Under the pieces are notes generated by a model. The model saw nothing but the letters and a program-made list of their open reading frames with translations. It made no database searches and had not been told where the DNA came from. Both the position numbers and the translations under genes were made by a program. From Pseudomonas versuta (GTDB taxonomy: Bacteria > Pseudomonadota > Gammaproteobacteria > Pseudomonadales > Pseudomonadaceae), in the NCBI RefSeq assembly GCF_001294575.1, contig NZ_CP012676.1:2170001-2234000 (forward strand): a stretch of DNA of 64,000 nucleotides, given 5' to 3'. Of the stretch, positions 9,257 to 41,935 are shown piece after piece. Numbering within the stretch: the stretch's first letter is position 1; every line of letters starts with the position of its first letter.

Positions 9257-9259
9257 CCC

Positions 9260-9397: not shown

Positions 9398-9423
9398 GGG
9401 CGGTAGAGCTGCGTATCCGCCAA

Positions 9424-9640: not shown

Positions 9641-9895
9641 CGCGGTTTTACCGTCTGCCATTCAGGCTTGTGCCGTTGCATCTGCTTAACGTCATCGCGC
9701 TGGCGAATACCGCAAGTTGCTGGAAGGGATACGCCGGGCGGCGCGGGACCGCCGGGGCTGTCGGCATAGAGGGTGCTTGTGATAAAGCATCGCGGGCACC
9801 GGCGGCACTCGACAAACAGATTGACATAACAACGGTAGCCACCTAACAATCAAGCGAAGAGGTACGACAACATATAACAATAAGGAAACCTTGCG

Positions 9896-17153: not shown

Positions 17154-17169
17154 TGTTATTTTTAGTCAG
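17154..17169 (+). promoter_or_regulatory. EPS-locus motif, copy 1 (TGTTATTTTTAGTCAG)
   Basis: Matches TGTTATwwAnnGTCnG except for T at the ninth position. Copy 1 and copy 2 start exactly 32 bp apart, about three helical turns, so two bound proteins would lie on one face of the DNA. Confidence 0.5.
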
Positions 17170-17185
17170 GAATAAGAAGATGAAA

Positions 17186-17201
17186 TGTTATTTATTGTCC
17201 G
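17186..17201 (+). promoter_or_regulatory. EPS-locus motif, copy 2 (TGTTATTTATTGTCCG)
   Basis: Second tandem copy upstream of the wzb-wzc operon, same strand as the four other copies at 17154, 27892, 33612 and 35187. Confidence 0.5.
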
Positions 17202-17496
17202 CCAATAAAGATTGAAAACGCCTATATATAGCGTCTGCTGGCCCGTGCGGTATATAAAGGTTGATATTGCCAACCCTTCGCAGTTAATATTTTCGCATCT
17301 ACAAGTTCACACCGCCCTTTTATCAGCATTAAAAGAGGGGCAACTGTTGCCTCCCACAGGCCATTGACCCATCAAACATGATGTGCGCATAGCCCTTATT
17401 GGCGGACACAGCCCATTTCCGAGAATGGAAATAGCGGACGTGACGATAGTTAAGTGCTCTCGCCGGCTGAGCATGTTTGGCACAAAGGAAGCTGCC

Positions 17497-17937
17497 TTGT
17501 TTAAACGAATCATGATCGTCTGCGTCGGCAATATTTGTCGCAGCCCCACCGCAGAACATCTCCTGCGGGTCGCCCTTGCACCCTCCGACATCGTCGTGAG
17601 CTCCGCAGGGCTTGGCGCACTCAAAAATAAACCCATCGAAGCAACCGCGCGCTCAATTCTTGAGGAGCACGGGCACGTCCTGAGCGACCACAGCGGCCGC
17701 CAATTGAACTCTGCGCTGATCAACGAGTCTGACCTCATCCTCGTGATGGAGAAAAACCACATTGACGGCGTGCTGAGCATTGCCCCCGAAGCACGAGGCA
17801 AAGTATTCCTGCTGGGCAAATGGCAAGACAACCGCGAAATCCCCGACCCATACCGTCAAGGCAAGCCTGCCTTTGTGCACGCGTATGCGCTGATCGATGC
17901 CGCCGTAAATGCATGGGCCCAGCGGATTAAACGCTGA
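17497..17937 (+). CDS. wzb: Low-molecular-weight protein-tyrosine phosphatase (Wzb)
   Basis: Cytoplasmic phosphatase that removes tyrosine phosphates from the partner kinase Wzc, cycling it during polysaccharide assembly. Active-site P-loop VCVGNICRSP (CxxxxxR-S) at residues 7-16 and catalytic Asp in EIPDPYRQG near the C-terminus. A TTG codon at 17497 is chosen as start: AAAGGAAG is positioned 8 bp ahead and the resulting 146-aa protein aligns end to end with Wzb, whereas the ATGs at 17383 and 17473 add unrelated residues. First gene of the exopolysaccharide locus, 40 bp before wzc. Confidence 0.88.
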   Translation: MFKRIMIVCVGNICRSPTAEHLLRVALAPSDIVVSSAGLGALKNKPIEATARSILEEHGHVLSDHSGRQLNSALINESDLILVMEKNHIDGVLSIAPEARGKVFLLGKWQDNREIPDPYRQGKPAFVHAYALIDAAVNAWAQRIKR

Positions 17938-17977
17938 GCTATTTTTCGAATTATCTGTGAAGAAAAAGAATCGACTT

Positions 17978-20206
17978 ATGCAGCAAGCACCCGTGACAAA
18001 GCCCCACGACCAAGAAGACGATAGTGACGACATTGACCTGATGGGTCTGCTGGGCACCCTGCTCGATCATAAATGGTTGATCGCAGGTGTGACCGGGGCG
18101 TTTATGGCTGCGGGGGTTGCCTACGCCCTGCTGGCTACACCGGTGTACCAAGCGAATGCGCTGATCCAGGTTGAAGCCAAGAAGAATGATCCACTGGGGT
18201 TTTCTGATATCGGCAGCATGCTGGGTAAAGAGTCTCCATCGGCCACAGAAATTGAGCTGATCAAGTCACGTACAAATATCGGCGCAGCAATTGATAACCT
18301 GCAACTGGATATCGAGGTTGAGCCCAACTACTTCCCATTGATCGGCGAATTTATAGCGCGACGCTTTACACCCTCTGCGGAAAACAACGTAGCGAGCCCG
18401 CTGCTTGGAATGAACAGTTTTGCTTGGGGCGGTGAGCAACTAAAGCTTGCCCAATTAGAATTGCCTAAAGAGTTGCTAGGCGAAGAGCTGAGCCTGGTCA
18501 CCGGTGAAGCAGGAAGCTTTAGTCTATTCGATGAAGACAACAACTTATTGATCAAAGGCCAAGTGGGGCAGAGCTACAGCCAAAATGGCATCAGCATTCA
18601 GGTTGAAGTGCTTAAGGCAAACCCTGGCACTACCTTCAGTGTGACCCGCTACCCACGTCTGACAACAATTTTACGTTACCAGAAAGTACTGGACGTCTCA
18701 GAGCGCGGCAAAGAGTCCGGCATGATCGGAATAGCCCTTGAGAGCGAAGAACCCGATATTGCAATCAATACCCTGAATGAAATCGCACGCCTTTATGTGC
18801 AGCAAAATATTGAGCGTACTTCCGCAGAAGCAGCACAAAGCTTAGGCTTCCTCAAAGATCAAATACCGCAAGTGCGCAAGGATCTTGAAAAAGCCGAAAA
18901 CGCATTAAATCAGTTTCAGATACGCAGCAAGTCTATCGACATCAGTCTCGAAGCCAAGGCCATCCTTGACCAGATCGTCGCACTTGATACCAGCATATCA
19001 ACCCTGAAGCTGCAGCAGGCCGAGATGGACCGTAAGTTCACTCCCCAGCACCCAGCTTATCGAGCATTAATGGGGCAACTCGCAGAGCTGACAGGTAAAC
19101 AGCAGCGCTTAGCAAAACAAGTCGAAGGCTTACCTACAACCCAGCAAGAACTGCTAAGTCTGACCCGCGATTTAAAAGTCAGCACAGAAATTTATACCCA
19201 ACTGCTTAATAAGTCTCAGGAACTGGATGTGATGCGTGCCGGTGCTGTTGGCAACGTTCGCCTGATAGATACCGCAGATGTGGACCTGCGCAATCCGGTA
19301 AAACCGAAAAAAGCATTGATCGTGCTAATGGCAACTCTCTTAGGCGCTTTTTTGGCCATTGGTTATGTGCTATTTCGCAAAGCACTCAACCGTGGTGTTC
19401 AAAATCCGGATGACATCGAAAAACTAGGTTTACCGGTATATGCGTCTATTCCTTTCAGCTCCTTGCAAAAAGTTGAGGACGAAAAAAGTCCTGGCGGTCG
19501 CGGGACACGTATCACCCCGCTACTGGCGAGCAGTCATCCAACTGATCTTGCAATTGAAGGGCTACGCAGCCTGCGTACCAGCCTGCACTTCGCAATGCTG
19601 GAAGCAAATAACAACCGACTGATGATTTCTGGCCCTAGCCCTAAAGTCGGTAAATCTTTCGTTTCCGCCAACCTTGCGGCAGTTATTGCACAATCTGGCC
19701 AACGCGTATTGCTGGTCGATGTAGATATGCGCAAAGGCTATATCCACAAAATGTTTGGTATCCCGGTAGATAACGGCCTTTCTGATCTGCTGGCCAAACG
19801 CTGCGACCTCGATACGGCAACACACAAAACAGACATAGAAAACCTCGACGTGATCGGGCGCGGGCAAGTTCCGCCGAATCCGTCCGAATTACTGATGCAC
19901 AAAAACTTTAGCGAGTTCCTGGATCAGATCAGTGCAAGGTACGACCAAGTGATTCTCGATACTCCGCCGTTTCTGGCAGTGACCGACGCTGCAATTGTCG
20001 GTCGACAATCTGGCACGAACCTGATTGTGACCCGCTTTGAGCTAAATCCGGCGCGTGAAGTTGAATTGACCATGCGACGCTTTGCACAGAATGGAATTGA
20101 ACTTAAAGGCGCTATTTTTAATGGCGTCGAAAAACGCGCATCAGCCAAATATGGCTATGGCGCATATGGTTATTATAACTACGAGTACAAGTCTGACAGC
20201 GTTTAA
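17978..20206 (+). CDS. wzc: Polysaccharide co-polymerase/BY-kinase (Wzc)
   Basis: Inner-membrane chain-length regulator and tyrosine autokinase, 742 aa. Wzz domain at about residues 18-110 with TM1 (KWLIAGVTGAFMAAGVAY); long periplasmic coiled coil at 280-400; TM2 at about 445-463. Cytoplasmic BY-kinase domain: Walker A GPSPKVGKSFVSANLA, Walker A' VLLVDVDMRKG, Walker B VILDTPPF. The C-terminus is the expected tyrosine cluster (YGYGAYGYYNYEYKS), the autophosphorylation tail. Start at 17978 (MQQAPVTK) gives the usual N-terminus; the frame remains open upstream into wzb. Followed by an intrinsic terminator, so wzb-wzc may be transcribed separately from the rest. Confidence 0.93.
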   Translation: MQQAPVTKPHDQEDDSDDIDLMGLLGTLLDHKWLIAGVTGAFMAAGVAYALLATPVYQANALIQVEAKKNDPLGFSDIGSMLGKESPSATEIELIKSRTNIGAAIDNLQLDIEVEPNYFPLIGEFIARRFTPSAENNVASPLLGMNSFAWGGEQLKLAQLELPKELLGEELSLVTGEAGSFSLFDEDNNLLIKGQVGQSYSQNGISIQVEVLKANPGTTFSVTRYPRLTTILRYQKVLDVSERGKESGMIGIALESEEPDIAINTLNEIARLYVQQNIERTSAEAAQSLGFLKDQIPQVRKDLEKAENALNQFQIRSKSIDISLEAKAILDQIVALDTSISTLKLQQAEMDRKFTPQHPAYRALMGQLAELTGKQQRLAKQVEGLPTTQQELLSLTRDLKVSTEIYTQLLNKSQELDVMRAGAVGNVRLIDTADVDLRNPVKPKKALIVLMATLLGAFLAIGYVLFRKALNRGVQNPDDIEKLGLPVYASIPFSSLQKVEDEKSPGGRGTRITPLLASSHPTDLAIEGLRSLRTSLHFAMLEANNNRLMISGPSPKVGKSFVSANLAAVIAQSGQRVLLVDVDMRKGYIHKMFGIPVDNGLSDLLAKRCDLDTATHKTDIENLDVIGRGQVPPNPSELLMHKNFSEFLDQISARYDQVILDTPPFLAVTDAAIVGRQSGTNLIVTRFELNPAREVELTMRRFAQNGIELKGAIFNGVEKRASAKYGYGAYGYYNYEYKSDSV

Positions 20207-20231
20207 TACGTCTGACTTTTCGAATATATTC

Positions 20232-20266
20232 GAGCACCCAACTAGTGAAGCGGTGCTCTCATTTTT
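20232..20266 (+). terminator. Intrinsic terminator after wzc
   Basis: Stem GAGCACC / GGTGCTC with a 13-base loop followed by TCATTTTT. It would end or attenuate transcription between wzc and wecB. Confidence 0.7.
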
Positions 20267-20284
20267 ACCGCAATACAAAATTCC

Positions 20285-20336
20285 TACAATCGTGCAGCTC
20301 TCAGGGACTAGCAAATAATCTTGGGGCGGTAGCATG
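20285..20336 (+). promoter_or_regulatory. Promoter -10 and ops/JUMPstart-like element before wecB
   Basis: TACAAT at 20285-20290 fits a sigma-70 -10 box, with only a T-rich weak -35. About 35 bp further, GGCGGTAGCATG (20325-20336) carries the RfaH ops core GGCGGTAG with its usual downstream GC-TG context. The preceding bases (CAGGGACTAGC at 20302-20312, then GGGGCGG) resemble the larger JUMPstart sequence of polysaccharide operons. It sits in the untranslated leader of a long operon, as expected for RfaH-dependent antitermination. Confidence 0.6.
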
Positions 20337-20493
20337 CCTAAACGGCCTGCTGAGGTAGCACAAAGTGGGCAATATGAGCTTATTGATTGTTAAAACCAAA
20401 CCTCGACTGAAATCAGTACGCGACTTAACCTGCGTACAGTCTCATGTAGTAATTCATTCTCAGATATCCGTCATATAACTCACGAGCACATTA

Positions 20494-21639
20494 ATGAAAC
20501 GTTCAATGAAAACCCTGTGTATTTTTGGTACTCGTCCTGAAGCCATTAAAATGGCCCCGCTCGTACTAGCACTGGCGGCAGACGAACGTTTCGAGGCCAA
20601 GGTCTGCGTTACAGGCCAGCACCGCGAAATGCTTGATCAGGTACTGGAATTATTTTCCATAACACCAGAATTTGACTTAGACATAATGAAGCCTGGGCAA
20701 GATCTCACAGGTGTAACAACTGCAATTTTGCAAGGCATGAAAGCTGTACTGGAAGAGTTCAAGCCGGATATTGTTTTGGTTCACGGGGATACGGCTACAA
20801 CATTTGCAGCGAGTCTTGCTGCTTACTACCAACAGATTCCAGTAGCGCACGTAGAGGCAGGTTTACGAACAGGCAACCTTTACTCTCCTTGGCCGGAGGA
20901 AGGGAATCGTAAACTCACAGGTGCATTGGCAAGAATAAATTTCGCCCCTACTGAAACTTCAAAAGATAACCTGCTGCGCGAAGGCATTTCCTCAGACAAT
21001 ATCGTAGTTACAGGTAATACAGTAATTGATGCTTTACTGGATGTTGTTAAGCGCCTCGATCAAGACTCAAAATTATTAGCACAGGCTGCTGCCCCCGCTG
21101 CTTTTCTAGACCCAACTCGTAAACTGGTCCTGGTAACCGGCCATCGCCGTGAAAGCTTTGGAGATGGATTCGAACGCATCTGCCACGCGCTGATAGAAGT
21201 AGCTCAACAACATCCAGAAGTAGATATTGTATACCCTGTGCACTTAAATCCTAATGTACGCGAACCCGTAAATCGCCTACTAAATGGTATTAGAAATATA
21301 TATCTAATTGCACCTCTGGACTACCTGCCTTTCGTCCATATGATGACTCGCGCCCACATCATCTTGACTGACTCTGGTGGTATTCAGGAGGAAGCACCAT
21401 CGCTGGGTAAGCCTGTGCTGGTCATGCGTGAAACAACAGAGAGGCCAGAAGCAGTCTCAGCAGGTACAGTGAAACTGGTTGGAACTGACACAGCCGATAT
21501 TGTGCGCGAAATAAACCGTTTGCTGATAGACACAGCCGCTTATCGCGACATGAGTTATGCCCATAACCCGTATGGCGACGGCAATGCGTGTCAACGCATT
21601 TTAGAGGCGCTGATACATTATCACTCTGATGCAAAGTAA
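20494..21639 (+). CDS. wecB: UDP-GlcNAc 2-epimerase (non-hydrolysing)
   Basis: Converts UDP-GlcNAc to UDP-ManNAc in the cytoplasm. 381 aa. Signatures: [15 protein letters not shown] at the N-terminus, [36 protein letters not shown], and the C-terminal substrate loop [20 protein letters not shown], all typical of WecB/MnaA with the catalytic Asp, Glu and His residues. A second ATG four codons in is an alternative start. Pairs with wecC directly downstream to make UDP-ManNAcA. Confidence 0.95.
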
Positions 21640-21693
21640 TTCCGCACCCCTATTCATCACCAATTAGTAATCAATCTCTGTCAAGGATGCTCC

Positions 21694-22956
21694 ATGCCTT
21701 TTACAACCATTTCTGTCATTGGTCTCGGCTATATCGGTTTACCCACCGCAGCAGTTTTTGCATCGCGCAAAAAAAAGGTTATCGGAGTTGACGTCAATCA
21801 GAAAGCAGTCGACATTATTAATCGCGGGCAAATTCATATTGTTGAGCCAGATCTGGACATGGTTGTTCATGCCGCTGTGACTGAAGGTTACTTGCGCGCA
21901 ACGACTCAACCAGAGCCCGCAGATGCCTTTCTCATTGCCGTACCTACACCTTTCAAAGACGACTACGAACCAGATCTTGGATATATTGAATCCGCCAGCA
22001 AAAGCATTGCCCCAGTACTTAAGAAGGGGGATCTTGTAATCCTTGAATCTACATCGCCAGTGGGTGCAACAGAGCAAATGTCAGCTTGGCTTTCCGAGGC
22101 ACGGCCAGATCTGACGTTTCCACAAACTCATGGCGAAGACTCAGACATTCGCATTGCTCACTGTCCAGAGCGTGTACTACCGGGGCATGTACTACAAGAA
22201 TTGGTACAGAATGACCGCGTAATTGGAGGTATGACTCCGAAGTGTTCAGCACTGGCGATTAGTCTGTATAAGATATTTGTACAAGGTGAGTGCATTGTCA
22301 CAAATGCTCGTACTGCAGAAATGTGCAAGCTCACCGAAAATAGTTCTCGTGATGTAAGTATCGCCTTTGCCAACGAACTTTCGATGATTTGTGACAAACT
22401 TGATATTAACGTCTGGGAATTAATACGCCTAGCCAATCGCCACCCTCGTGTAAACATCCTGCAACCTGGGCCAGGCGTAGGCGGTCATTGTATTGCAGTG
22501 GACCCTTGGTTTATTGTGAGTAAAACGCCGGAGCAGGCCCGCCTAATACGGACTGCGCGAGAAGTGAATGACAGCAAGCCTCTATGGGTAATAGAAAAAG
22601 TTAAAATTGCAGTCGCTGAATATCTGCAAGCCAACCCAAGTAAAACCTCAAAAGAAGTAACTATTGCTTGTTTTGGATTGGCGTTCAAGCCTGATATAGA
22701 CGATCTGCGAGAAAGTCCTGCTCTGTTCATCACTAAGAAGATTGCAGACACCCACCCAGGCAAAGTCATGGTTGTGGAACCTAATATCCAAACACTCCCT
22801 AACAACTTAAAGGATATACTCTCTTTAGTGGATATAGCCACAGCCCTTAAGACAGCAGATATTACGATAGTACTAGTTGACCATAAAGAATTTAAAGAGT
22901 CCAAATCAAAGTTTGCGTCCGCCACACACTTAATTGACACGCGCGGACTAATCTAA
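21694..22956 (+). CDS. wecC: UDP-N-acetyl-D-mannosamine dehydrogenase
   Basis: Oxidises UDP-ManNAc to UDP-ManNAcA with two NAD+. 420 aa. NAD-binding GLGYIGLPTAAVFA at residues 8-21; catalytic Cys in PGPGVGGHCIAVDPWF (about residue 264); C-terminal UDP-binding region FKPDIDDLRESPAL. AAGGA precedes the ATG. The gene is noticeably more AT-rich than the chromosome backbone, the beginning of the low-GC core of the locus. Confidence 0.95.
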   Translation: MPFTTISVIGLGYIGLPTAAVFASRKKKVIGVDVNQKAVDIINRGQIHIVEPDLDMVVHAAVTEGYLRATTQPEPADAFLIAVPTPFKDDYEPDLGYIESASKSIAPVLKKGDLVILESTSPVGATEQMSAWLSEARPDLTFPQTHGEDSDIRIAHCPERVLPGHVLQELVQNDRVIGGMTPKCSALAISLYKIFVQGECIVTNARTAEMCKLTENSSRDVSIAFANELSMICDKLDINVWELIRLANRHPRVNILQPGPGVGGHCIAVDPWFIVSKTPEQARLIRTAREVNDSKPLWVIEKVKIAVAEYLQANPSKTSKEVTIACFGLAFKPDIDDLRESPALFITKKIADTHPGKVMVVEPNIQTLPNNLKDILSLVDIATALKTADITIVLVDHKEFKESKSKFASATHLIDTRGLI

Positions 22957-23069
22957 ACAGCAGACAAGAACCCAAGGCCAAAGTTAAAATCTAACTTTGG
23001 CCATTATAAATACTTATGCAAACAAACAAACTCTAGAATTAAGCGCCATATAAAGATGAGAAGTATACA

Positions 23070-24146
23070 ATGCGTCACCTAATTCGGCTTTGCATAGACC
23101 AAGGGCTTTCTTCACTATCTCTTTTTATGTTCTCCATAACATTAGCCCGTGAATTTGGAGCAGCCGAGTTCTCAACCTATGCGGTCGCGCTAAGCACAAG
23201 CTTGATGGTAATGGCGATTTTCAATTCTGCATATATAGAACCTACAGCATTTAAAGATAGTGATGGTATATCTAGAAGAACCGTAGCCACAAAAATCTTG
23301 ACCCTAACATTAACAACATCTATTGCGTGTCTTTTCTTCATAGATAAAACACAATTTTTCTCGGTTTTTTCGTTCGTTGCAGGTAGTTCTACGCTGTATG
23401 CTGTAAGAAGAATTAAAGCATTGAACGGAGAGCAAAACAAACTCACCATAATATCCACAACCAGCTTCGCCTTGACAATTCTGGCACTATTGGTCCTTGA
23501 CTACAAACAGGCCCCACTTAGTTTGTGGCTAATTACTTATGGACTAATAGGCGTATCGTATATATTTTTCATCCCAGAAACTAAACACAAAAGTAAAACA
23601 TCACCACCTGCAGACTTTAAGAGCTTGTTTATAGCTATAATGTTCTGGGTATGCAGTAATTATTTTTTCTATTACCTCCCCGCTATTGGCCGAGCTGTCG
23701 AAGGCGGCCAGCTTAGAATCATATACACTTTGTTTATGCCTATACTTCAAGCAGGAACAATAGCGGGATCTATTTATATTTCTAAAAAATCCTCACGCAA
23801 AATAGTTCTCCCTGCAACAATATTCATCACTATCATTTACGGCCTAATGTTAATAGCAGTAGGACCTGACACCATATTTAAAATCACTAACATCCCAATA
23901 AGCAGAGTTGAATTACTATTTGCAACGATTATGGTCGTAGCTAATAGTAGTGCTGGATTGCAATCGATCTCTATGCGCATGCAAAATTGTGTAAAACCAC
24001 TCCTAGCCTCCAGCACCCTATCCGCCGCTGCGTTGATCTCGCTTGGATTCCTAGCTGACGACCTAAACAAGATTATGATGTGCATAACACTAAGCTTTTT
24101 ACTAAGCACTACTCTATCGCAAGCCATTAGGCACATGCAAAAGTGA
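23070..24146 (+). CDS. Wzx-like polysaccharide flippase candidate
   Basis: Very hydrophobic 358-aa protein with about ten predicted membrane segments and no catalytic motif. Position before a Wzy-like gene, AT-rich codon use, and MATE/PST-like N-terminus (LIRLCIDQGLSSLSLFMFS) make it the best candidate for the lipid-linked repeat-unit flippase. It is shorter than the usual 400-480 aa Wzx, and overall similarity is too low to name it firmly; a second transporter is not present in the locus. Its last codons overlap the next start (GTGA). Confidence 0.6.
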   Translation: MRHLIRLCIDQGLSSLSLFMFSITLAREFGAAEFSTYAVALSTSLMVMAIFNSAYIEPTAFKDSDGISRRTVATKILTLTLTTSIACLFFIDKTQFFSVFSFVAGSSTLYAVRRIKALNGEQNKLTIISTTSFALTILALLVLDYKQAPLSLWLITYGLIGVSYIFFIPETKHKSKTSPPADFKSLFIAIMFWVCSNYFFYYLPAIGRAVEGGQLRIIYTLFMPILQAGTIAGSIYISKKSSRKIVLPATIFITIIYGLMLIAVGPDTIFKITNIPISRVELLFATIMVVANSSAGLQSISMRMQNCVKPLLASSTLSAAALISLGFLADDLNKIMMCITLSFLLSTTLSQAIRHMQK

Positions 24147-25336
24147 AAATCTCAAAAATAATTACAGCCGCCATAGTTTTATTCTCATTTGACAGTCTCA
24201 TAAAAATCACATTTGACGACTTCAGAATCCATATATCACACTTACTTATACTTGGTGCGCTCTTATTGTGCACAATATCTTCGAAAAAATGGGCAGTACC
24301 GTATGCACGGAGCAACAAAACGATAATACTCTTACTTGCATACTTACTACTCCATGCATTTATTGCAACAGATCTAAAAACTTATGTAATAGTACTATCA
24401 TACTTCCTCCTAGCAGTGATAATGCATATAGCAATTTTCACATATTCGCAAAAAATAAATTTTAGCTACTTTTTCAAAATATCTCTTTTGATTTTAATTA
24501 TCACTGGATTAGCTCAATTTATATTGCAACATGTATTTAACTTTCAAATCTCACTCGGAGGCCTTTCAGAGGAATATTACAATAATGGTGGCAGCATTGT
24601 TGACCGCATGCGAGGATTATTCCTTGAGCCCAACTGGTACGGCCTCTACTTAGCGGCATGCCTAATAGGTTACATAACAACAACACGCGTCAGAAAAAAC
24701 CACACGTGGATTATATTGGCTTCCTTGATCTGCTTATACTTAAGCGGCAATCGGCTAACACTATATTTTTCGCTCATCTCTATCGCAGCTTTTTTCTACG
24801 AAAAGCACGCACACCGAATTCCAAGACTGGTACTTATATGCGCCTGTTTGGCACCTATAGCCTTTTTGATTGCATTAACCTTTAGTAGTTCTTTGTCAGA
24901 GTCATTTGGAGAAGACCGTTCTGCGTCAGCGAGAAGCGTAACAGCCCTAAAAACTGCGACCTACATGCAAAGTAACTTTTCCTTTCCGTCATTATTATTG
25001 GGGAATGGATTATCGACATGGGGAGAAATTTCCTTTCAAGCAAATCTATCCTCTCGTGCCGATTCCGAAAAAAGCAAAACTGCAAGAGACACTAGCGAAT
25101 CATATGTTATTTTGTTCGAACTCGGCATAATCGGCGCAATATTATTCCTTCTTGATTTTTATGCCGTATGCAACCTTTGCAAAAAAAGACCCGAAGGTTC
25201 ACAAATGATGATCCTGGCGTCTTTAATATTCAGCGCAGCATTTTATTATCCAATATTTTATTTTATGATGTATCTCGCACCATACTTCGCTGCCAGAACC
25301 TACTGCTCCTTAAGAAGTGGAGAACCCAATGTTTAA
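24143..25336 (+). CDS. wzy: Wzy-like O-antigen/EPS polymerase
   Basis: 397-aa inner-membrane protein with about ten transmembrane segments. The sequence RMRGLFLEPNWYGLYLAACL in the first half resembles the G-x-EPN motif region of Wzy/WaaL-type polymerases and a large periplasmic loop follows (about residues 250-320, SSSLSESFGEDRSASARSV). It starts with GTG overlapping the preceding stop and is strongly AT-rich. Predicted to polymerise repeat units in the periplasm; sequence alone does not separate Wzy from ligase, but cluster context favours Wzy. Confidence 0.75.
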   Translation: MKISKIITAAIVLFSFDSLIKITFDDFRIHISHLLILGALLLCTISSKKWAVPYARSNKTIILLLAYLLLHAFIATDLKTYVIVLSYFLLAVIMHIAIFTYSQKINFSYFFKISLLILIITGLAQFILQHVFNFQISLGGLSEEYYNNGGSIVDRMRGLFLEPNWYGLYLAACLIGYITTTRVRKNHTWIILASLICLYLSGNRLTLYFSLISIAAFFYEKHAHRIPRLVLICACLAPIAFLIALTFSSSLSESFGEDRSASARSVTALKTATYMQSNFSFPSLLLGNGLSTWGEISFQANLSSRADSEKSKTARDTSESYVILFELGIIGAILFLLDFYAVCNLCKKRPEGSQMMILASLIFSAAFYYPIFYFMMYLAPYFAARTYCSLRSGEPNV

Positions 25337-26887: not shown

Positions 26888-26988
26888 GCAACTTGGTTTT
26901 TTATTCAGCTTCTTAATGTTGTAAAAACAGGTAGCACCTTTGCTATACCAAGTTACACCTCACCAACTCAGGATCACTGCGTTTCGAT

Positions 26989-27735: not shown

Positions 27736-28065
27736 ATGTTACTGTCACAATAAGAACTTATCTTCGTAGTGGAAAGATAACAAGCAACTCGCACGGCTGA
27801 TACTAGTGCAGCCCTAGATTTTTCAGCATTAAAAAGGCTACGCAGCCCTGGATGTCTGCACTCGCAGCGAGTAGGCTGGAATTGCTAGCGATGTTATAAA
27901 ACGTCAGTAACCATTCTCGCCCTGCACAGGTATTCTTGAAGCGTTATTGCGAATTATAATGCCTGTACAGACTTCGCTTGATTGGTACCCATGGCGTTCG
28001 TAGTAGTGTGTTTACCGACTCAAGTCTCAATGACAATACAGACGATTTATCAAAAGGATTTATCT
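27736..28065. other. Intergenic leader of the yjbE-wza-yjbFGH unit
   Basis: 330 bp with a 7-bp-arm inverted repeat (TTATCTT / AAGATAA, 27758-27780), the EPS-locus motif at 27892, and a perfect TATAAT at 27955-27960 lacking a good -35. A separate, regulated promoter for the export genes is therefore likely. Confidence 0.6.
27892..27907 (+). promoter_or_regulatory. EPS-locus motif, copy 3 (TGTTATAAAACGTCAG)
   Basis: Same strand and pattern as the other four copies. It lies 63 bp upstream of the TATAAT at 27955, a typical distance for an activator site. Confidence 0.55.
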
Positions 28066-28380
28066 ATGAACAAATTTCTCGTTTCCGCATTTGCTCTGAC
28101 CCTAAGCGCATCGGCTTTCGCTGTTGAACCTGTTCCAGTTGCTGTAGCCCCAGCTGCAGATGCGTCTGTCGATGCTGATGTTGCTGCCGCTGAATCCTTG
28201 GAAACTACAACCGGCGTTTTGGGCGGAGTTAGCACCGCAACAGCCGTTGGCGCAGGCGTTGCAGTAGCTGCTGGTGCTGCCGCAATTGCTGCAGGCGGTG
28301 GTGGCGGTGGCGGCAGCAATGGCGGTACTACAGGTACTACAGGTACCACCGGCACTACAGGCACCACCGGCACAAGGTAA
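28066..28380 (+). CDS. yjbE: YjbE/GfcA-like small secreted exopolysaccharide protein
   Basis: 104-aa exported protein. Signal peptide at residues 1-20 (MNKFLVSAFALTLSASAFA). The mature part is Ala/Val-rich with a hydrophobic stretch, a run of seven glycines and a C-terminal Gly-Thr-Thr repeat built from a 9-bp DNA repeat. E. coli YjbE has the same plan (Thr-rich tail, signal peptide). AAAGGA lies 8 bp ahead of the ATG at 28066; the frame upstream is open but lacks signals. First gene of a yjbEFGH-type set into which a Wza gene is inserted. Confidence 0.8.
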   Translation: MNKFLVSAFALTLSASAFAVEPVPVAVAPAADASVDADVAAAESLETTTGVLGGVSTATAVGAGVAVAAGAAAIAAGGGGGGGSNGGTTGTTGTTGTTGTTGTR

Positions 28381-28464
28381 ACACCTGGTCAGGATGACGG
28401 GAAATAACTACCTGGATTTTTCCAGGTATTTGATTTTGATGTGTTTCTTTTACAAGTGTCCTCA

Positions 28465-29580
28465 ATGATGATTCGTAGTTTGTCGCTCGCGGTACTTGCA
28501 GGGCTCGCCCTGCAAGGTTGTATGTTTGCGCCCGGTCAATACCTGGACACCAGTGAAATCGGTACTGAAGGCTCTCCAGAAAGCAGTCGGGTCGAGTTGA
28601 TTCCCATCACTCCCAAGCTGATCGCGCAAAACGCGGCGACACACGTCTCAAGCTCGGTGCCAGCAGAATTGCTGGCATTCAAGCCGCAGGCTTACAGGAT
28701 CGGGGCCAATGACGTGTTGTACATCACGGTTTGGGACCATCCTGAGTTGACAGCACCTTCAGGGCCGCAACAACAGATTGACGCGAACGGTCGCTTGGTG
28801 CGCCCGGATGGCACAATCTTTTATCCCTACATTGGCAAGCTCGACGCGGCGGGTAAAACCATCGAAGAACTGCGTTCGACCATTGCTCAACGCTTGGCGC
28901 AATACGTTGATAGCCCACAAGTAGACTTGAGCGTATTACGCTTTGCTAGTCAAAAAGCGATTCTAGCGGGCGCTGTGGTCAAGGCCGGGCCAGTACCTAT
29001 TACAACCTCCCCACTTAGCGTTGTCGAGGCAATAGGGGCCGCAGAAATTGACCCTCTCAATGCCGATTTATCCGGACTGGTTCTTACCCGGGATGGCAGA
29101 GAATATGTACTGGATCTGGATACTCTCAATAGCCAAGGGTCGCAGTTGCAGAACGTATTTCTGAAAGATGGCGACCAGTTATACCTGCCCTACAACGATC
29201 GTAAAAAGATTTATGTGATGGGTGAGGTACTGGTGCCGCAGGCGATCAGATTCAGAACAAAACACATGAACCTTGCGGACGTAGTCGGCTCGGTTGGCGG
29301 GCTCAATCAAACCACTTCCAATGGTAATGCGCTGTATGTCATTCGTGGTGCAGACAACATTGAGACCGAGCCGGCCAAGGTGTTTCAGCTGGACGCGCAG
29401 TCACCTACCGCTTTTGCGATTGCCAACCGCTTTGAACTCAAGCCCCAGGACATCGTTTACGTTGGCCCGGCTCAGGTAACGCGCTGGAACCGTTTGATCA
29501 GCCAACTGCTACCATCGGCGACCATTCTCGGTACCGGCGCTGCCGCAGGTAACAACCTCAGTGAAGCCAACAGCCGATAA
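28465..29580 (+). CDS. wza: Outer-membrane polysaccharide export lipoprotein (Wza family)
   Basis: 371-aa secretin-like exporter. Lipobox ALQGC near residue 19 of MMIRSLSLAVLAGLALQGC. Poly_export domain begins with YRIGANDVLYITVWDHPEL (about residue 80), followed by SLBB domains (KAILAGAVVKAGPVPI; KKIYVMGEVLVPQAIRF). The C-terminal amphipathic region is short. Start is uncertain: ATGs at 28465 and 28468 and a GTG at 28441 are in frame and none has a clear ribosome site. It forms the export channel with Wzc and lies inside the yjb operon, the order seen in E. coli group-4 capsule loci (gfcA...etp/etk) in rearranged form. Confidence 0.92.
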   Translation: MMIRSLSLAVLAGLALQGCMFAPGQYLDTSEIGTEGSPESSRVELIPITPKLIAQNAATHVSSSVPAELLAFKPQAYRIGANDVLYITVWDHPELTAPSGPQQQIDANGRLVRPDGTIFYPYIGKLDAAGKTIEELRSTIAQRLAQYVDSPQVDLSVLRFASQKAILAGAVVKAGPVPITTSPLSVVEAIGAAEIDPLNADLSGLVLTRDGREYVLDLDTLNSQGSQLQNVFLKDGDQLYLPYNDRKKIYVMGEVLVPQAIRFRTKHMNLADVVGSVGGLNQTTSNGNALYVIRGADNIETEPAKVFQLDAQSPTAFAIANRFELKPQDIVYVGPAQVTRWNRLISQLLPSATILGTGAAAGNNLSEANSR

Positions 29581-29593
29581 GGTTTGAGCCGTT

Positions 29594-30253
29594 TTGAAAA
29601 CTCTTCGTAACCGCTCATGCCTGGTGGCGTGCTTGTTGCTGTGTGGCTGCAGCCCGCTGATGAAAGGCTCTCTGGACACCTTCAAAGCTACTGTCCACAA
29701 CGTTGAGCCGCTGCAAGTTACAGCGGCCGACGTCGCAAAGGTGCCGTTTGCGCAAATCAAGGTCACCACCCCTTCTAGCGAAGGTGTAATGGCCAAACTT
29801 CGTCAGCTGGGCGATCTGCAGTTCTGGGTCGCCTCTGGCAAGCAAGTGTTACTGATGCGCGACGGTCTGGTAGTGCGCTCCATAGGACTGCAACCAAGTT
29901 TGGATGGCACCCGTTTCGACGGAGAGTCGCCGTTCAAGCGAGGCTTACAGCATGTGGTTGACGGTGAAACCAGTACCCGCTGGATTGATATCTATGAAGG
30001 CGAGCAAGTCGGCCTGATGGTCAACAGCCGCTTTATCCGCAAAGGTCTGGAAACCGTGACCATCGTCGATCAGCGCTACGTGGCACAGCGGATTGACGAG
30101 GAGTTCGAGATCCCTGCCTTGGGGTTTAAGGCAACCAACCGTTATTGGGTCCGGCCAGACGATGGCCTGGTGCTGCAGAGCAGACAGTATCTGACGCCGG
30201 AGCTTGAGTTGAAAATTGTGCACCTGCGTCCTGACTGGGAGAGCTCCCGGTGA
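29594..30253 (+). CDS. yjbF: YjbF/GfcB-like lipoprotein
   Basis: 219-aa lipoprotein (lipobox LLLCGC at residues 14-19). The remainder is a predicted beta-rich domain (FWVASGKQVLLMRDGLVVRS, YWVRPDDGLVLQSRQYLTPE) matching the YjbF/GfcB family required for group-4 capsule and yjb EPS production. Start is TTG (29594) with AAGG about 12 bases upstream; no ATG fits the signal peptide. Overlaps yjbG by 4 bp. Confidence 0.85.
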   Translation: MKTLRNRSCLVACLLLCGCSPLMKGSLDTFKATVHNVEPLQVTAADVAKVPFAQIKVTTPSSEGVMAKLRQLGDLQFWVASGKQVLLMRDGLVVRSIGLQPSLDGTRFDGESPFKRGLQHVVDGETSTRWIDIYEGEQVGLMVNSRFIRKGLETVTIVDQRYVAQRIDEEFEIPALGFKATNRYWVRPDDGLVLQSRQYLTPELELKIVHLRPDWESSR

Positions 30254-31017
30254 AGCATTTGAAAAAACTGACCCTATTCCTGTTGCTCAGCCATGGCGCA
30301 CTTAGCCACGCCGATGTGACAGTAAGCGGTGATGCAGCGAAGCCGGGGACCTTCCCTTTTACTCCGGGCTCGCGCTTGCTGGATGTGGTCAAGCAAGCCA
30401 GGCCTAATCCTGAAAGCTACTGGTTCGCCGCTGCCTGGTTGCACCAGCCATTGCTGGAGCAACAGACACGGTTGAAAGCCGGAGTGCTTTTCGACCTGAA
30501 AATGCTGCAACGTGGCGCGCTGTTAAACAACAACAGCACCCTTGCAGCCCTGGCTGCACGTCTGTTTGAAGATGTGAGCCAAATGCCCGTTACTGGTCGC
30601 AAGGTCGCTGTACTTGACCCGGTTGCGCTGGAAGTTGGTTTTGCCCGCAACTATGCGCTCAGTGATGGTGATCAGCTTGTTTACCCGGCTCGCACCAATA
30701 CCGTCAAAGTAGTCGGAGCTGTGGAGAAACCTTGCACCCTGCCCTATCAGGTGCAGCAAGAAGCACGTGATTACCTGGACAACTGCCCGGCATTACCAGA
30801 GGCAGAAGCTGACTATCTGTGGCTGATCCATCCGGACGGCAAATACCGTCGTGTCGCTATCGCCGCTTGGAATCGCGAGGACGGGGTGCATGCCACCGCC
30901 GGCAGCACGATTCTTGTGCCTGTGCGCAACGACATTCCCGATTTGCCCACGCCTGATTTGAATGAGCAATTGGCCCAGTTTCTCGCCACTCAACCGTTGG
31001 CCGAGGTTGCACCTTGA
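30250..31017 (+). CDS. yjbG: YjbG/GfcC-like periplasmic capsule protein
   Basis: 255-aa exported protein with signal peptide (residues 1-21, ending LSHA). Two beta-grasp, SLBB-like domains are suggested by VTVSGDAAKPGTFPFTPGSR and TVKVVGAVEKPCTLPYQV; LPYQVQQEARDYLDNCP is typical of GfcC. Starts with GTG in a GTGA overlap with yjbF. Family function: accessory protein of polysaccharide export, thought to work with Wza; exact activity unknown. Confidence 0.85.
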   Translation: MKHLKKLTLFLLLSHGALSHADVTVSGDAAKPGTFPFTPGSRLLDVVKQARPNPESYWFAAAWLHQPLLEQQTRLKAGVLFDLKMLQRGALLNNNSTLAALAARLFEDVSQMPVTGRKVAVLDPVALEVGFARNYALSDGDQLVYPARTNTVKVVGAVEKPCTLPYQVQQEARDYLDNCPALPEAEADYLWLIHPDGKYRRVAIAAWNREDGVHATAGSTILVPVRNDIPDLPTPDLNEQLAQFLATQPLAEVAP

Positions 31018-33095
31018 AGTTACGTTTTGCTGTTGTTGTATTACTGCCTTACAGCCTGGCCCATGCAGAGCCACGCTATACCCAAAATGATTTCGGTGGT
31101 GTGGGCCTGTTGCAAACCCCTACGGCACGCATGGCTCCTGCTGGTGAGTTGAGTTTGAACGCCAACCGTACAGATCCTTACTCGCGTTATAGCTTATCTT
31201 TACAACCGCTGGACTGGCTGGAAGGTACATTCCGCTATACCGCGTTTAGCAACCGCAAGTACGGCGTTGAGGCGCTTAGCGGAAGTCAAAGCTATAAGGA
31301 TAAAGCAGTTGATGCTAAAGCACGTTTATGGCAAGAGACTCATTGGTTACCAGAAATTGCATTAGGCTTTCGAGATATCGGTGGTACAGGGCTTTTTTCC
31401 AGTGAGTACTTTGTAGCAAACAAGCGCTTTAACAACCTGGACTTTAGTCTAGGTATTGCTTGGGGTTATATCGGTAACCGTGGGGATTTTGATAACCCAC
31501 TAGGCTACATAGATGGTCGCTTTGAAACAAGACCAACTAGTTCTACCGCTGGCAATGTAAATACAAGCTCGTACTTTAGAGGGTCCCCATCTTTGTTTGG
31601 CGGTGTCACGTACCAAACTCCTTGGACTCCATTAAGTATGAAGTTCGAGTTCGATGGCAATGACTACAAACATGAACCATTAAATAGCAGCTTGAAACAG
31701 GACTCCCCCATAAATATTGGCGCAGTCTATAAACTTAATGAAAACATTGACCTTACTGCTGGATGGGAACGCGGCAATACCGCGCTATTCGGCATCACGC
31801 TGCATACCAACTTTGTTAGTCGCAAGGCACCAGCCAAAACCTACGATCCACCTGCCGAGCCGCTACCTTCTAAAGCACCGACCACGCCATTGAATCAGGT
31901 TGACTGGGCAGAGGTTTCGAAAAAGCTGGAAAACAACGCTGGCTATAAAGTGGAACGAATTGCTCAGCGTGATTCAGAACTGATGGTGTACGGCGAGCAA
32001 TCGAAGTACTTCTATCCGGCCAAGGCCGTGGGAAGAGCCAGCAGGATTTTGGACAATACTGCGAATGACGATATTCAGTGGTTCACGATGGTTGGGAAGC
32101 GTTATGGCATGCCAGTTGAAGAAACCAGCGTGCCGCGCAAAACGTTCCGCGACGTAGTCAACAACGAACAGGATCTGGTTGCCCTGCACCGCACTGCCGA
32201 GATTAACCGGGCCGATCCGCATGTGGAGAACACACTGTACAGCCAGAAAGCTGATCCTTTTACCTATGGTTTCGGTTTGGGATATCAACAGAACCTCGGC
32301 GGCCCCGACGGATTTCTTCTGTACCAGATCAATGCCTATGCAGAAGGCCAATACCGATTTACTCCTGGTACCTGGGCAAGTGGTGGCATCAGCGCCAACC
32401 TGCTGAACAATTATGACAAATTTAAATACGACGCCCCAAGCAACCTGCCGCGAGTGCGTACGGATATACGTCAATACGTCACCACTTCCGAAGTGACTAT
32501 GCCAGCACTGCAATTGAACCACGCTCAAAAACTGGGCCAGGATTTATATGGCATGGTCTACGGCGGTTATCTCGAACCCATGTACGCAGGTGTCGGCGGC
32601 GAGTTGCTATACCGTCCGATGGGCGAGCGCTGGTCGATTGGAGCCGATTTGAATTATGTGAGCCAGCGTGAGTTTGATCAGGGTTTTGGACTGCGGGACT
32701 ACAGAACGCTGACCGGTCACGTAACTACCTACACCAAACTGCCATTCGACCTTGATGCAGCAGTAAGTGTCGGTCGTTATCTGGCACGCGACTGGGGCAC
32801 CACAATCGATATCTCACGCGAATTCGGCAATGGCGTGAAATTCGGTGGCTGGGTGACACGAACTACTGCTTCTGCAGAAGAATATGGTGAAGGTAGCTTC
32901 GACAAAGGGATTTATATCTCTATTCCATTCGACGAAATGATGAGCGTATCCACCATGAGCCGCGCCAACATAGCGTGGGCGCCACTTACTCGAGACGGTG
33001 GCGCGATGCTTCATCGCCAATACTCGTTGCACACGATGACTGATGGCAGAAACCGGGATGCATTCTATGAAAACATCGAAAAAATCACAGAGTGA
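31014..33095 (+). CDS. yjbH: YjbH/GfcD-like outer-membrane beta-barrel protein
   Basis: 693-aa exported protein predicted to form an outer-membrane barrel. Signal peptide ends at SLAHA (about residue 18). N-terminal YjbH motif NDFGGVGLLQTPTARMAPAG; C-terminal half has alternating beta strands (GYLEPMYAGVGGELLYRPMG, RYLARDWGTTIDISREFGNG). Starts with TTG overlapping yjbG. Family members accompany Wza in group-4 capsule and yjb EPS secretion and may be an outer channel or surface anchor. Last gene of the yjb unit; no clear terminator follows. Confidence 0.87.
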   Translation: MKLRFAVVVLLPYSLAHAEPRYTQNDFGGVGLLQTPTARMAPAGELSLNANRTDPYSRYSLSLQPLDWLEGTFRYTAFSNRKYGVEALSGSQSYKDKAVDAKARLWQETHWLPEIALGFRDIGGTGLFSSEYFVANKRFNNLDFSLGIAWGYIGNRGDFDNPLGYIDGRFETRPTSSTAGNVNTSSYFRGSPSLFGGVTYQTPWTPLSMKFEFDGNDYKHEPLNSSLKQDSPINIGAVYKLNENIDLTAGWERGNTALFGITLHTNFVSRKAPAKTYDPPAEPLPSKAPTTPLNQVDWAEVSKKLENNAGYKVERIAQRDSELMVYGEQSKYFYPAKAVGRASRILDNTANDDIQWFTMVGKRYGMPVEETSVPRKTFRDVVNNEQDLVALHRTAEINRADPHVENTLYSQKADPFTYGFGLGYQQNLGGPDGFLLYQINAYAEGQYRFTPGTWASGGISANLLNNYDKFKYDAPSNLPRVRTDIRQYVTTSEVTMPALQLNHAQKLGQDLYGMVYGGYLEPMYAGVGGELLYRPMGERWSIGADLNYVSQREFDQGFGLRDYRTLTGHVTTYTKLPFDLDAAVSVGRYLARDWGTTIDISREFGNGVKFGGWVTRTTASAEEYGEGSFDKGIYISIPFDEMMSVSTMSRANIAWAPLTRDGGAMLHRQYSLHTMTDGRNRDAFYENIEKITE

Positions 33096-33611
33096 ATGAA
33101 CATCACCAATAGTTGATGATTTGGCAAGGTACTTGAATTTTACCGTATCCGTGCTGGTCTGCAGCAGCAGCCAGCACTCGCAACCTATTACGGAAGTTTT
33201 TGCTCTGGAAGACCAAGTGCTTCATCCCCTGCAAGCTTGCCTGCCCTGTCAACGAGTAGTCACGCTTCCTCTGCAGATCAAGCCCCACTGGACAGAACTG
33301 ACTACAAGCATCAACGGATGTTCAGAAATATGCCTAAGCGTCTTTTCTAATGCAGAGATGCTCTCTTTGCAAGGTAACGACCAATTCCTGAGGCGTTGTG
33401 AGCATACTGCGTATGACCTGGGCCTTACGTAGATAACCACTCGAAATGCGTTAAAAACGTCTAACCGAATACGGTACAAGCTAGAATCATGCCTTCCACG
33501 CAATTCAAAATCCTCGGCCGTGTACGTCATCTGGCAGTGTGCAGTGAACACCTCTCTAGGTTATGACCTGTGGACAGACTTTCATCGAGCTATGAAATGC
33601 ACACCCCCTAA
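33096..33611. other. Gene-free stretch after yjbH
   Basis: About 520 bp. Several frames of about 100 codons exist on both strands (for example minus 33249-33551) but none has a ribosome site, known domain or consistent codon use. No hairpin terminator was found. Confidence 0.5.
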
Positions 33612-33627
33612 TGTTATAAATTGTCGG
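33612..33627 (+). promoter_or_regulatory. EPS-locus motif, copy 4 (TGTTATAAATTGTCGG)
   Basis: Differs from copy 5 at one of 16 positions. It lies 60 bp before the orphan regulator gene at 33687, which suggests autoregulation. Its first ten bases also resemble an extended -10 box (TGnTATAAT), so it might be a promoter element itself. Confidence 0.55.
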
Positions 33628-33686
33628 TTTTCACATGGGCGGGTATGGCAAAATCAGGCCGCCTCTAGGTATTTGGGTTAGGTGAT

Positions 33687-34391
33687 ATGCTTTCCGCAGG
33701 ATACAAGGTCGATTTAAATACAGCTTCCGTATTGAGTTGTATACAAACTGAAGCGCTTAATGACGATATTAAAAAGCTTATCTCTTCAGACGCTAAGCAT
33801 ATAGACGCCTACGATTACGTAAAAGCCAAGGAGCATAATTTTTACGGCACAAGTGCATTTTTTATAGAGGTAGGATTATCGGAAAACGTCATTGACAGTT
33901 TTGAATTAGTTAAAAAATTCCGCCAGGTCAATCAAACAGCTTGTATCTTCATATTGGCAACCTATACCAAATCTTTTTCAAGTATAAATTATTACCTTGC
34001 CGGGGCGGACCACTGTATAAAATTGCCAACAGATCCTGATGAAAAGTCAAAGCTCTTAATGCGTACAATCAACGAGTCACACTGGAAGAAAAAAACTCAG
34101 TTATTCCTTGACCGTACACGACTTTTATTAAGCACCAACACCAGCAAACTTGAAATTTCGTACACCGAAATGATCATCATTGATGCACTGCTGCGAGCAC
34201 CAAATCATGCGATGAGTCAGGATGACATTGCAAAAACACTTGACCCAAATATCGTCTTTTATGATCCAAGGGCCTTGGAAAAAACCATCAGCCGCTTAAG
34301 AACCAAAATAAAAAAAGCTTACCATCTAGAACTTATATTCAGTATTCGAGCATTTGGTTATCGACTGCGTAGGGAGACGGTTTCGGGATAA
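33687..34391 (+). CDS. OmpR-type regulator with degenerate, phospho-mimetic receiver
   Basis: 234-aa protein with a divergent receiver-like domain (residues about 5-125) and a winged-helix output domain (about 150-230, ending RALEKTISRLRTKIKKAYH and FSIRAFGYRLRRE). At the phospho-Asp position the strand reads AFFIEVGLSEN, with Glu61 in place of Asp; the acidic pair of the first strand is absent, while Thr92 and Lys112 (IKLP) equivalents remain. It therefore probably acts without a histidine kinase, and none is nearby. AT-rich. Position between export genes and the initiating transferase, with the 16-bp motif upstream, makes it a likely local regulator of the polysaccharide locus. Confidence 0.8.
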   Translation: MLSAGYKVDLNTASVLSCIQTEALNDDIKKLISSDAKHIDAYDYVKAKEHNFYGTSAFFIEVGLSENVIDSFELVKKFRQVNQTACIFILATYTKSFSSINYYLAGADHCIKLPTDPDEKSKLLMRTINESHWKKKTQLFLDRTRLLLSTNTSKLEISYTEMIIIDALLRAPNHAMSQDDIAKTLDPNIVFYDPRALEKTISRLRTKIKKAYHLELIFSIRAFGYRLRRETVSG

Positions 34392-34516
34392 TATATATTT
34401 TCAAATCTCATAGCAACGAACCGAAAAGGTTTACCAGAGATTCGTGGCTCTGTGATGGTGAAATATATGATGCCGGATTTACCGTATCAACAGTGACACA
34501 GGGATGTAGTTAAATT

Positions 34517-34747
34517 ATGAAACCTGAGTTTAAAATTGTTAATCACGCGCCCTATATAAATGGATATATTCCAGCACAGAGAAGTAGCATAGCAGACGGC
34601 ATTATTTTCGTAGGAACAGGTAGCGCGTCACACCGTAAAAGTTACCCAAGAAAACAGCCGTCTCTAAAAACTCATTTCCACTACCTCAAGGTTTTTGCGA
34701 CTCCAGCCTTGAGCATAACGTCGGCGCAGCGTTCCAATGCCACCTAA
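34517..34747 (+). CDS. Uncertain short open frame
   Basis: 76 codons starting with an ATG 9 bases after AGGGAT and ending 11 bp into the following regulator gene. No known domain, signal peptide or compositional support. It may be a leader peptide gene or the decayed receiver part of the next protein, but no receiver motifs can be recognised. Reported because it is the only candidate in the 345-bp gap between the two regulators. Confidence 0.25.
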   Translation: MKPEFKIVNHAPYINGYIPAQRSSIADGIIFVGTGSASHRKSYPRKQPSLKTHFHYLKVFATPALSITSAQRSNAT

Positions 34748-35072
34748 TCAAACGCCTCCCCCGCACTCCTCTGTACATGAAACTTGGCTGTTCGATCTCC
34801 AGTCACGAGAACTGTTCACAGTCTCAGCCCGGATTCAGCTTACAGCAATTGAATCCCTGCTAATAAAGACACTGATATTCAACGAAGCACGTATTTGCAG
34901 CAAGCAAGAGCTGATTCTCGGCATCGATAAAGACGCAGATAATTATAGAGGATTGGAGATGTGCCTAAGTCGGCTTCAGAGCAAATTCAAAAATGCTTTT
35001 GGCGAACGCCTTTTTCGCTCCGTGCGCAACCGAGGCTACTGCCTGGTCCAAGAAGTGAAAAGCGCGTACTAA
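34737..35072 (+). CDS. Receiver-less winged-helix (OmpR/PhoB C-terminal type) regulator
   Basis: 111-aa protein consisting almost only of a Trans_reg_C winged helix: QLTAIESLLIKTLIF, then RGLEMCLSRLQSKFKNAFG and LFRSVRNRGYCLVQE. The recognition-helix and wing region parallels the preceding regulator (SRLRTKIKKAY versus SRLQSKFKNAF), so the two are paralogous outputs in tandem. No receiver, membrane segment or ligand domain, hence constitutive DNA binding or partnership with the other regulator is likely. The ATG at 34737 has no good ribosome site and overlaps the short frame upstream, so translation may be coupled or the start may differ. Confidence 0.7.
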   Translation: MPPNQTPPPHSSVHETWLFDLQSRELFTVSARIQLTAIESLLIKTLIFNEARICSKQELILGIDKDADNYRGLEMCLSRLQSKFKNAFGERLFRSVRNRGYCLVQEVKSAY

Positions 35073-35186
35073 TGCTTGATGCGTAACACCAATACCCTTA
35101 TTAAATATCGACAGTTGATAGCACGCAGTCTGAGTATTAAAGTTGAGCTCCACGAAAGAGAAGATGGCTATCCGCCATCATCCCAA

Positions 35187-35202
35187 TTGTTATAAATAGT
35201 CG
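35187..35202 (+). promoter_or_regulatory. EPS-locus motif, copy 5 (TGTTATAAATAGTCGG)
   Basis: Lies in the 280-bp leader of the initiating transferase gene. Flanking bases (CCCAAT on the left) also agree with copy 4. An 11-bp word TATCGACAGTT occurs twice in the same leader (near 35106 and 35229). Confidence 0.55.
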
Positions 35203-35352
35203 GGCACTGAATTTTAATATCCCTTATTATCGACAGTTAGTTCAGCCCCCCATAATCAAAGCACCGCCGATCCGACACATGAGAAATGCAGCGCGCACGA
35301 TTATATCGCCAGCAATTTTCATTTAGACAAGAACTTATACAAGGCTGATACC

Positions 35353-41920: not shown

Positions 41921-41935
41921 GATCATCATCCCTAA

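Follow-up and report, generated by a model that had tools for sequence, protein, structure and literature searches.

A 16-bp direct-repeat box in the leaders of a Pseudomonas versuta polysaccharide locus, most likely an operator of OmpR/PhoB-type regulators encoded within it

Which protein reads a 16-bp sequence that recurs in front of the genes of a single polysaccharide locus in Pseudomonas versuta? The locus lies in a 64,000-nucleotide stretch of contig NZ_CP012676.1 (assembly GCF_001294575.1, positions 2,170,001 to 2,234,000 of the forward strand), which was analyzed as a whole and is hereafter called the window. Because Pfam finds Wzb, Wzc, Wza, YjbF, GfcC/YjbG, YjbH, and a WcaJ-type transferase in it, we classify it as a colanic-acid-like polysaccharide locus, and two genes for winged-helix proteins of the OmpR/PhoB type, for which we coined the names regA and regB in this analysis, sit in front of wcaJ. 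The sequence, TGTTATwwAnnGTCnG (hereafter the box), stands in the leaders of wzb-wzc, yjbE-wza, regA, and wcaJ. As a class of explanation, we consider it highly probable that the box is an activator site of RegA, RegB, or both, and the box with its genes most likely represents a new operator and regulon of the OmpR/PhoB type.

The first-pass annotation had listed five copies of the motif, at 17154, 17186, 27892, 33612, and 35187. Exact matches were found at 17186, 27892, 33612, and 35188, whereas the copy at 17154 has one mismatch to the consensus, a T at position 9, and the fifth copy occupies 35188-35203, one base further on than first given. All five are on the plus strand and intergenic, as described. 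Box 1 (TGTTATTTTTAGTCAG, 17154-17169) and box 2 (TGTTATTTATTGTCCG, 17186-17201) are the distal and proximal copies of the wzb-wzc leader, box 3 (TGTTATAAAACGTCAG, 27892-27907) belongs to the yjbE-wza leader, box 4 (TGTTATAAATTGTCGG, 33612-33627) to that of regA, and box 5 (TGTTATAAATAGTCGG, 35188-35203) to that of wcaJ; the last two are identical at 15 of 16 positions, again as noted before. In 100 dinucleotide shuffles of the window, the number of exact matches never rose to four (mean 0.01). A weight matrix made from 21 boxes of the window and its relatives, the five window copies included, ranked these five first in the window with 22.6 to 25.3 bits, and the next site, at 9864 on the minus strand, scored 15.5 bits.

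In the whole genome of the organism (5,149,788 bases in one contig), the exact motif occurs six times, four of them in this locus, and the backward pattern does not occur. The relaxed core TGTTAN6GTCNG was found 17 times in these 5.15 Mb, five times within the 18 kb of the locus, and its backward control 53 times, so that the core is outnumbered by its mirror image. One relaxed match lies elsewhere in the window (50884, minus strand). Among the 12 core matches outside the locus copies, 11 are inside frames of at least 130 residues, although one of these matches (L006), which has the opposite orientation, lies by eye only in what is probably a falsely extended 5' part of a frame, ahead of a porin-like gene; the twelfth match (L005) shares bases with the 3' end of a frame. 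A -10-like hexamer at 22 to 24 bases after the site was seen at none of the 12 (one has it at 21), against four of the five locus copies, where the match of the 17154 copy falls within the adjoining box and the 17186 copy has none. Judged from these surroundings, the core matches elsewhere in the genome look like chance, without convincing promoter copies.

Conservation in related Pseudomonas, a comparison that the first-pass annotation had proposed, was borne out at orthologous regA, wcaJ, yjbE-wza, and wzb leaders. Conservation counts cover leaders that are not cut by a contig or locus end, and the -10 counts below cover sites with enough downstream sequence. In ten orthologous loci of relatives, the core stands before regA in 9 of 10, before wcaJ in 9 of 10, and before yjbE-wza in 7 of the 8 leaders lying within the stretch. 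In 80 named Pseudomonas loci (L062-L141), which are the best 80 of 104 relatives, it was found on the coding strand of 77/80 regA, 61/80 wcaJ, and 55/62 wza leaders, against 1/80 for regB and 0/63 each for yjbF, yjbG, and yjbH. The other strand carries it in 0 regA, 2 wcaJ, 6 wza, and 1 regB leaders. The half-site pattern [TCA]GTTA-N6-GTC was scanned in leaders of 200 bp for regA and 320 bp for wcaJ in a set composed of the 80 loci, the window, L045, L046, and some further loci; it was present in 87/91 regA, 88/88 wcaJ, and 1/91 regB leaders, with 0 for the backward control in each, and in diverged wcaJ leaders, GTTA-N6-GTC is retained behind an initial C or A. A second conserved box was also observed about 380 to 440 bases upstream of regA (60 sites in the 80 loci); in the clusters examined, these far-upstream copies have no -10-like hexamer at the usual distance.

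Before wzb, the core is present in the three genomes examined, G185, G182, and G058 (L216), the last with a tandem pair 30 bp apart comparable to boxes 1 and 2. Furthermore, it was found upstream of yjbE before an epimerase gene, which we take to be galE or galE-like, in L063 (20259), L220 (729), and L222 (7078), and before a gene for a ParA/MinD-like ATPase in L212; Pfam was run on the epimerase gene of L063 and the ATPase gene of L212. In these epimerase leaders, a near-copy of the box lies about 30 bases further on. Since the box stands before epimerase and ParA-like genes as well, the regulon predicted for the relatives is somewhat wider than in the window.

The occurrence of the box is linked to that of the regulator genes. 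Using a cut-off of E up to 1e-25 for regA, we found regA in 65 and YjbH in 67 of 249 genomes of the genus, the own one included: 62 have both, 3 regA only, 5 YjbH only, and 179 neither. Genomes with regA contain 17.85 core copies on average (n = 65) and those without it 8.82 (n = 184), compared with 39.5 and 32.0 copies of the backward control, and after regression on this control an excess of about 7.5 core copies goes with regA, among genomes that are related and hence not independent trials. The five YjbH-positive genomes without regA have no site in the wza leader (0/5, best score 8.5). In addition, a RegB match lies beside RegA in all 91 regA loci. The earlier interpretation is borne out in part: a regulator box of a regulon encoded in the locus is well supported by the conserved leaders, the tie to the regulator genes, and the lack of convincing promoter copies elsewhere in the genome, but the regulon has to be drawn more widely in the relatives.

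The shape of the box resembles operators of this regulator family. The core is a direct repeat, TGTTA-N6-GTCnG, whose half-sites GTTA and GTCr are unequal and start 10 bp apart; activator operators of the OmpR/PhoB type are direct repeats with half-sites about 10-11 bp apart. Among 132 distinct 30-base site contexts, the search pattern dictates positions 1-5, 12-14, and 16; of the other columns, 8-10 favor A or T (0.97, 0.82, and 0.83), 15 is usually a purine (0.78), and 6 is variable. By eye, non-homologous leaders have little in common outside the 16 bp.

The distance to a downstream hexamer is also constrained. When 30 leader clusters were counted with their distal copies, TAnnnT followed the box at 22 to 24 bases in 9, compared with a mean of 1.86 in shuffles, none of which reached 9 in 5000. 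For the gene-proximal regA and wcaJ boxes, which form 14 clusters, [TC]AnnnT was present at an offset of 22 to 23 in 14/14 and TAnnnT in 12/14, and in 2000 shuffled sets the best two-base offset anywhere gave at most 8 and 6, respectively; because the clusters of one gene are homologous, these counts represent conserved spacing and not 14 independent events. In the window, the hexamers are CAAAAT 22 bases after box 4 (33649-33654) and TATTAT 22 bases after box 5 (35225-35230). After the addition of six boxes (four of wzb, that of yjbE in the window, and that of the ParA-like gene), 15/20 have the hexamer at 22 to 23. The leader comparison places TATTCT 24 bases after box 3 in the window (27931-27936; the same in L212), a second -10 candidate in this leader being TATAAT (27955-27960), and the offset at the ParA-like gene of L212 is 23. 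In L063-type yjbE leaders, TAnnnT lies at 24 for the distal copy of the tandem pair and not for the proximal one. A possible -10, TATATA, was picked out by eye 22 bases after box 2 (17223-17228), but we rejected it as a case of this spacing because it fails the strict TAnnnT test, as do the three other wzb boxes. As the wzb boxes fail, we restrict the sequence-derived spacing rule to regA and wcaJ, adding as single cases yjbE of the window and the gene for the ParA-like protein in L212. With the hexamer taken as the -10 element, the box would span about -50 to -35. A fixed place upstream of a predicted -10, on or beside the -35 element, is thus seen at regA and wcaJ but not at wzb.

In an alternative already raised by the first-pass annotation, which wrote it as TGnTATAAT, the box would belong to sigma-70 promoters as their extended -10 element (TGn-TATAAA). 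Copies 3-5 do read TGTTATAAA, and positions 8-10 remain A/T-rich in relatives, but most of them have other bases in place of the TAT within TATAAA (for example, TGTTAGAACTCGTCAG before wcaJ and TGTTACCAATTGTCAG before regA), and TGnTATAAT is not kept in the orthologous leaders. Position 6, a column that the search left free, is T in 18% of the 132 contexts. A general promoter box would also fit poorly with dependence on regulator genes and with a separate -10-like hexamer 22 to 23 bases downstream at regA and wcaJ. With positions 6-9 varying in relatives and that hexamer at a fixed spacing, we rejected this reading, which we regard as very improbable. Fainter still is the prospect that the sequence is conserved for another reason, as an element of a shared 5' leader RNA or as a remnant of duplicated promoters. 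Every window copy does lie on the coding strand and in a leader, but the distances to the start codon range from about 60 to about 300 bases in the window, some copies in relatives are reversed, and the flanks beyond the 16 bp differ between leaders by eye; moreover, a -10 element at the downstream hexamer would leave the box outside the RNA. We give this explanation hardly any credence.

Somewhat more room, though not much, is left for binding by a regulator found across the genus (MvaT, AmrZ, or another two-component regulator, for example), with the regulators of the locus acting elsewhere. Global regulators such as MvaT and AmrZ are expected in nearly all these genomes, whereas the excess of copies goes with regA and the export leaders of genomes without regA lack the box (0/5). 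The assignment of RegA or RegB as the binding protein is itself indirect, which leaves an opening for such a regulator, and excerpts of two reports on P. fluorescens SBW25 describe its capsule genes as also GacA-dependent and held down by MvaT (PMC4357382, PMC6519391). On balance we judge this explanation unlikely.

Several observations weigh against RegA and/or RegB as the readers of the box. Six of the 62 wza leaders have the core on the reverse strand, and the opposite strand carries the sole good site near yjbE in L045, L139, L213, and L215. A -10-like hexamer at 22 to 24 bases is missing at all four wzb boxes, and just 9 of the 30 clusters that include distal copies have one. Relatedness also limits both data sets: clusters from the leaders of one gene are homologous, the 249 genomes share ancestry, and neither set is independent. 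The five YjbH-only genomes may hold a different type of locus, because their wza is distant (59-61% identity). Finally, L207-L209, which encode RegA and RegB homologues without yjbH, have no site by regA, two of these homologues being distant (about 32% identity). In one of the three, L208 (G137, 8754-9856), regA and regB lie beside frames that by eye resemble the left flank of the window (UmuC-like and response-regulator); from this arrangement, it looks like a locus that has lost its polysaccharide genes and the box.

The predicted proteins suggest how a regulator of this kind could work. RegA (33687-34391, plus strand, 234 residues) has a Trans_reg_C domain (PF00486, 38.1 bits over 26.2), and the Pfam scan found no receiver domain in it. 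Its closest homologue with a named organism is from Pseudomonas versuta (79% identity), and another homologue is 97% identical. A receiver-like N-terminal fold is nevertheless predicted: the structural model (mean predicted local distance difference test score, 81.6) alternates strands and helices, four strands being assigned, and a Foldseek search with it gave 67 Protein Data Bank matches with E no higher than 0.001, headed by full-length OmpR-type response regulators. The lowest E-value (3.5e-9) was obtained for DNA-bound CosR, an atypical OmpR-type regulator, with a template modeling score (TM-score) of 0.37, indicating that the two domains match and their mutual placement does not. KdpE is also matched over both domains (E about 1e-8, TM-score about 0.4 at full length), and a profile match to 1kgs covers positions 13-227. 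In 38 aligned sequences inspected by eye, the presumed position of the phosphoacceptor aspartate is occupied by Glu, Ile, Val, or Asn (Glu in RegA of the window) and the acidic pair after strand 1 is missing; RegA is thus an OmpR-type winged-helix regulator with a degenerate receiver. The stretch YD-RA-EK-ISRLR-KI of the recognition helix is nearly invariant, like the core of the box. RegB (34737-35072, plus strand, 111 residues; PF00486) is a lone winged-helix regulator without a receiver. Because neither protein has a normal phospho-receiver, their activity is likely set by amount and not by a kinase.

In 30 of the 91 loci (L045, L124, L129, L139, L213, and others), a gene of at least 200 codons with a product of about 250 residues lies between regA and regB. 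Two such products were scanned and matched the C-terminal part of EAL only (37.8 and 37.5 bits); this degenerate-EAL gene may link the switch to cyclic diguanylate. The window and the 60 other loci have no intervening gene, and no long frame is present in 34391-34737.

We propose that RegA and/or RegB would bind the direct repeat GTTA-N6-GTCr at about -50 to -35, and that the bound regulator would recruit RNA polymerase to a -10 element beginning 22 to 24 bases downstream. The promoters served would belong to wzb-wzc, yjbE-wza-yjbFGH, wcaJ, and regA itself. The box at regA, together with the lack of a working phospho-receiver in either regulator, would make output track regulator abundance and feed back on itself. 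What the analysis establishes is the sites, their conservation, their link with the regulator genes, the spacing of the -10-like hexamer at regA and wcaJ, and the degenerate receiver; binding, activation, and positive feedback by RegA or RegB are what we infer. The unequal halves of the box and the constant pairing of the two genes make it worth considering that a RegA-RegB heterodimer reads the box, each protein taking one half-site (TGTTA or GTCrG) and both being needed. We advance this tentatively and think it rather doubtful; if true, then with the box at regA it would constitute a kinase-free two-key switch set by regulator abundance, and the box would be the cis element underlying bistable capsule formation in SBW25-type pseudomonads.

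The genes that follow the boxes are all on the plus strand. The gene wzb (17497-17937, start approximate; PF01451) encodes a low-molecular-weight protein tyrosine phosphatase, and wzc (17909-20206; Wzz, WZC_N, and GNVR domains) encodes a tyrosine autokinase and chain-length regulator. Between wzc and yjbE, Pfam finds sugar enzymes and glycosyltransferases. The gene for a yjbE-like small protein (28067-28380) was recognized from the sequence, its name being a candidate derived from position, and is followed by the export genes wza, yjbF, yjbG, and yjbH (28441-33095; PF02563, PF11102, PF06251, and PF06082). The gene wcaJ (35353-36741; PF02397) encodes the initiating sugar-phosphate transferase. 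On the minus strand, a gene for a beta-helix protein (38129-40162; PF13229) with a Tat-like signal sequence by eye adjoins the polysaccharide locus, and its product possibly acts on the polymer. Two overlapping frames at 40699-41929, also on the minus strand, show an apparent frameshift and look like two parts of one ChrA-type transporter.

In the literature searched, by titles and the beginnings of abstracts, we found no description of the box. From a 16-bp box with a defined promoter spacing, transcript starts can be predicted and the regulon outlined, and the feedback loop becomes addressable by a few base changes. Boxes of the OmpR/PhoB family, such as the pho box, are likewise direct repeats, lie over the -35 element or next to it, and space their half-sites by about one turn of the helix; here, however, the halves are unequal (GTTA and GTCrG) and 10 bp apart, and the box ends 21 to 23 bases before the -10-like hexamer. 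The arrangement also recalls the RcsAB box of enterobacterial colanic acid loci, in that a shared box stands before colanic-acid-type genes and a regulator gene, but the regulators here belong to another protein family. RegA resembles ChxR, HP1043, and CosR in having a receiver-like domain without the acid pocket. It differs from them in that a second regulator accompanies it in 91/91 loci, RegB of the window having no receiver. ChxR is reported to have Glu at the phosphorylation position (PMC4395418), and the condition seen in RegA matches published descriptions of aspartate-less receivers (PMC4395418, PMC12632262).

The closest parallel is the CAP locus of P. fluorescens SBW25, whose capsule switching is a model for the evolution of a phenotype switch. 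According to excerpts of the published work, the capsule requires pflu3654-pflu3657, which immediately precede the capsule genes, wcaJ being the first of these; when gfp is fused to the sequence in front of pflu3655, it is expressed in capsulated cells, and a promoter active in such cells thus lies there (PMC4357382). Moreover, pflu3655 mRNA is 572-fold higher in capsulated 6B4 than in 6A4, nonpolar insertions in pflu3656 and pflu3657 lower capsulation, and a positive feedback loop was proposed (PMC6519391). Regulators at this position are thus reported to drive a bistable capsule switch, and the same excerpts contain no description of an operator (PMC4357382, PMC6519391). No SBW25-named record was among the homologue matches listed, and we liken the two loci by gene position: both in SBW25 and in the window and its relatives, regulators lie directly upstream of wcaJ. 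Gene numbers indicate a third gene between the outer regulators in SBW25, whereas the window has none. The box identified here would provide a candidate DNA target for the feedback that those reports, as excerpted, propose to run through the regulators next to wcaJ.

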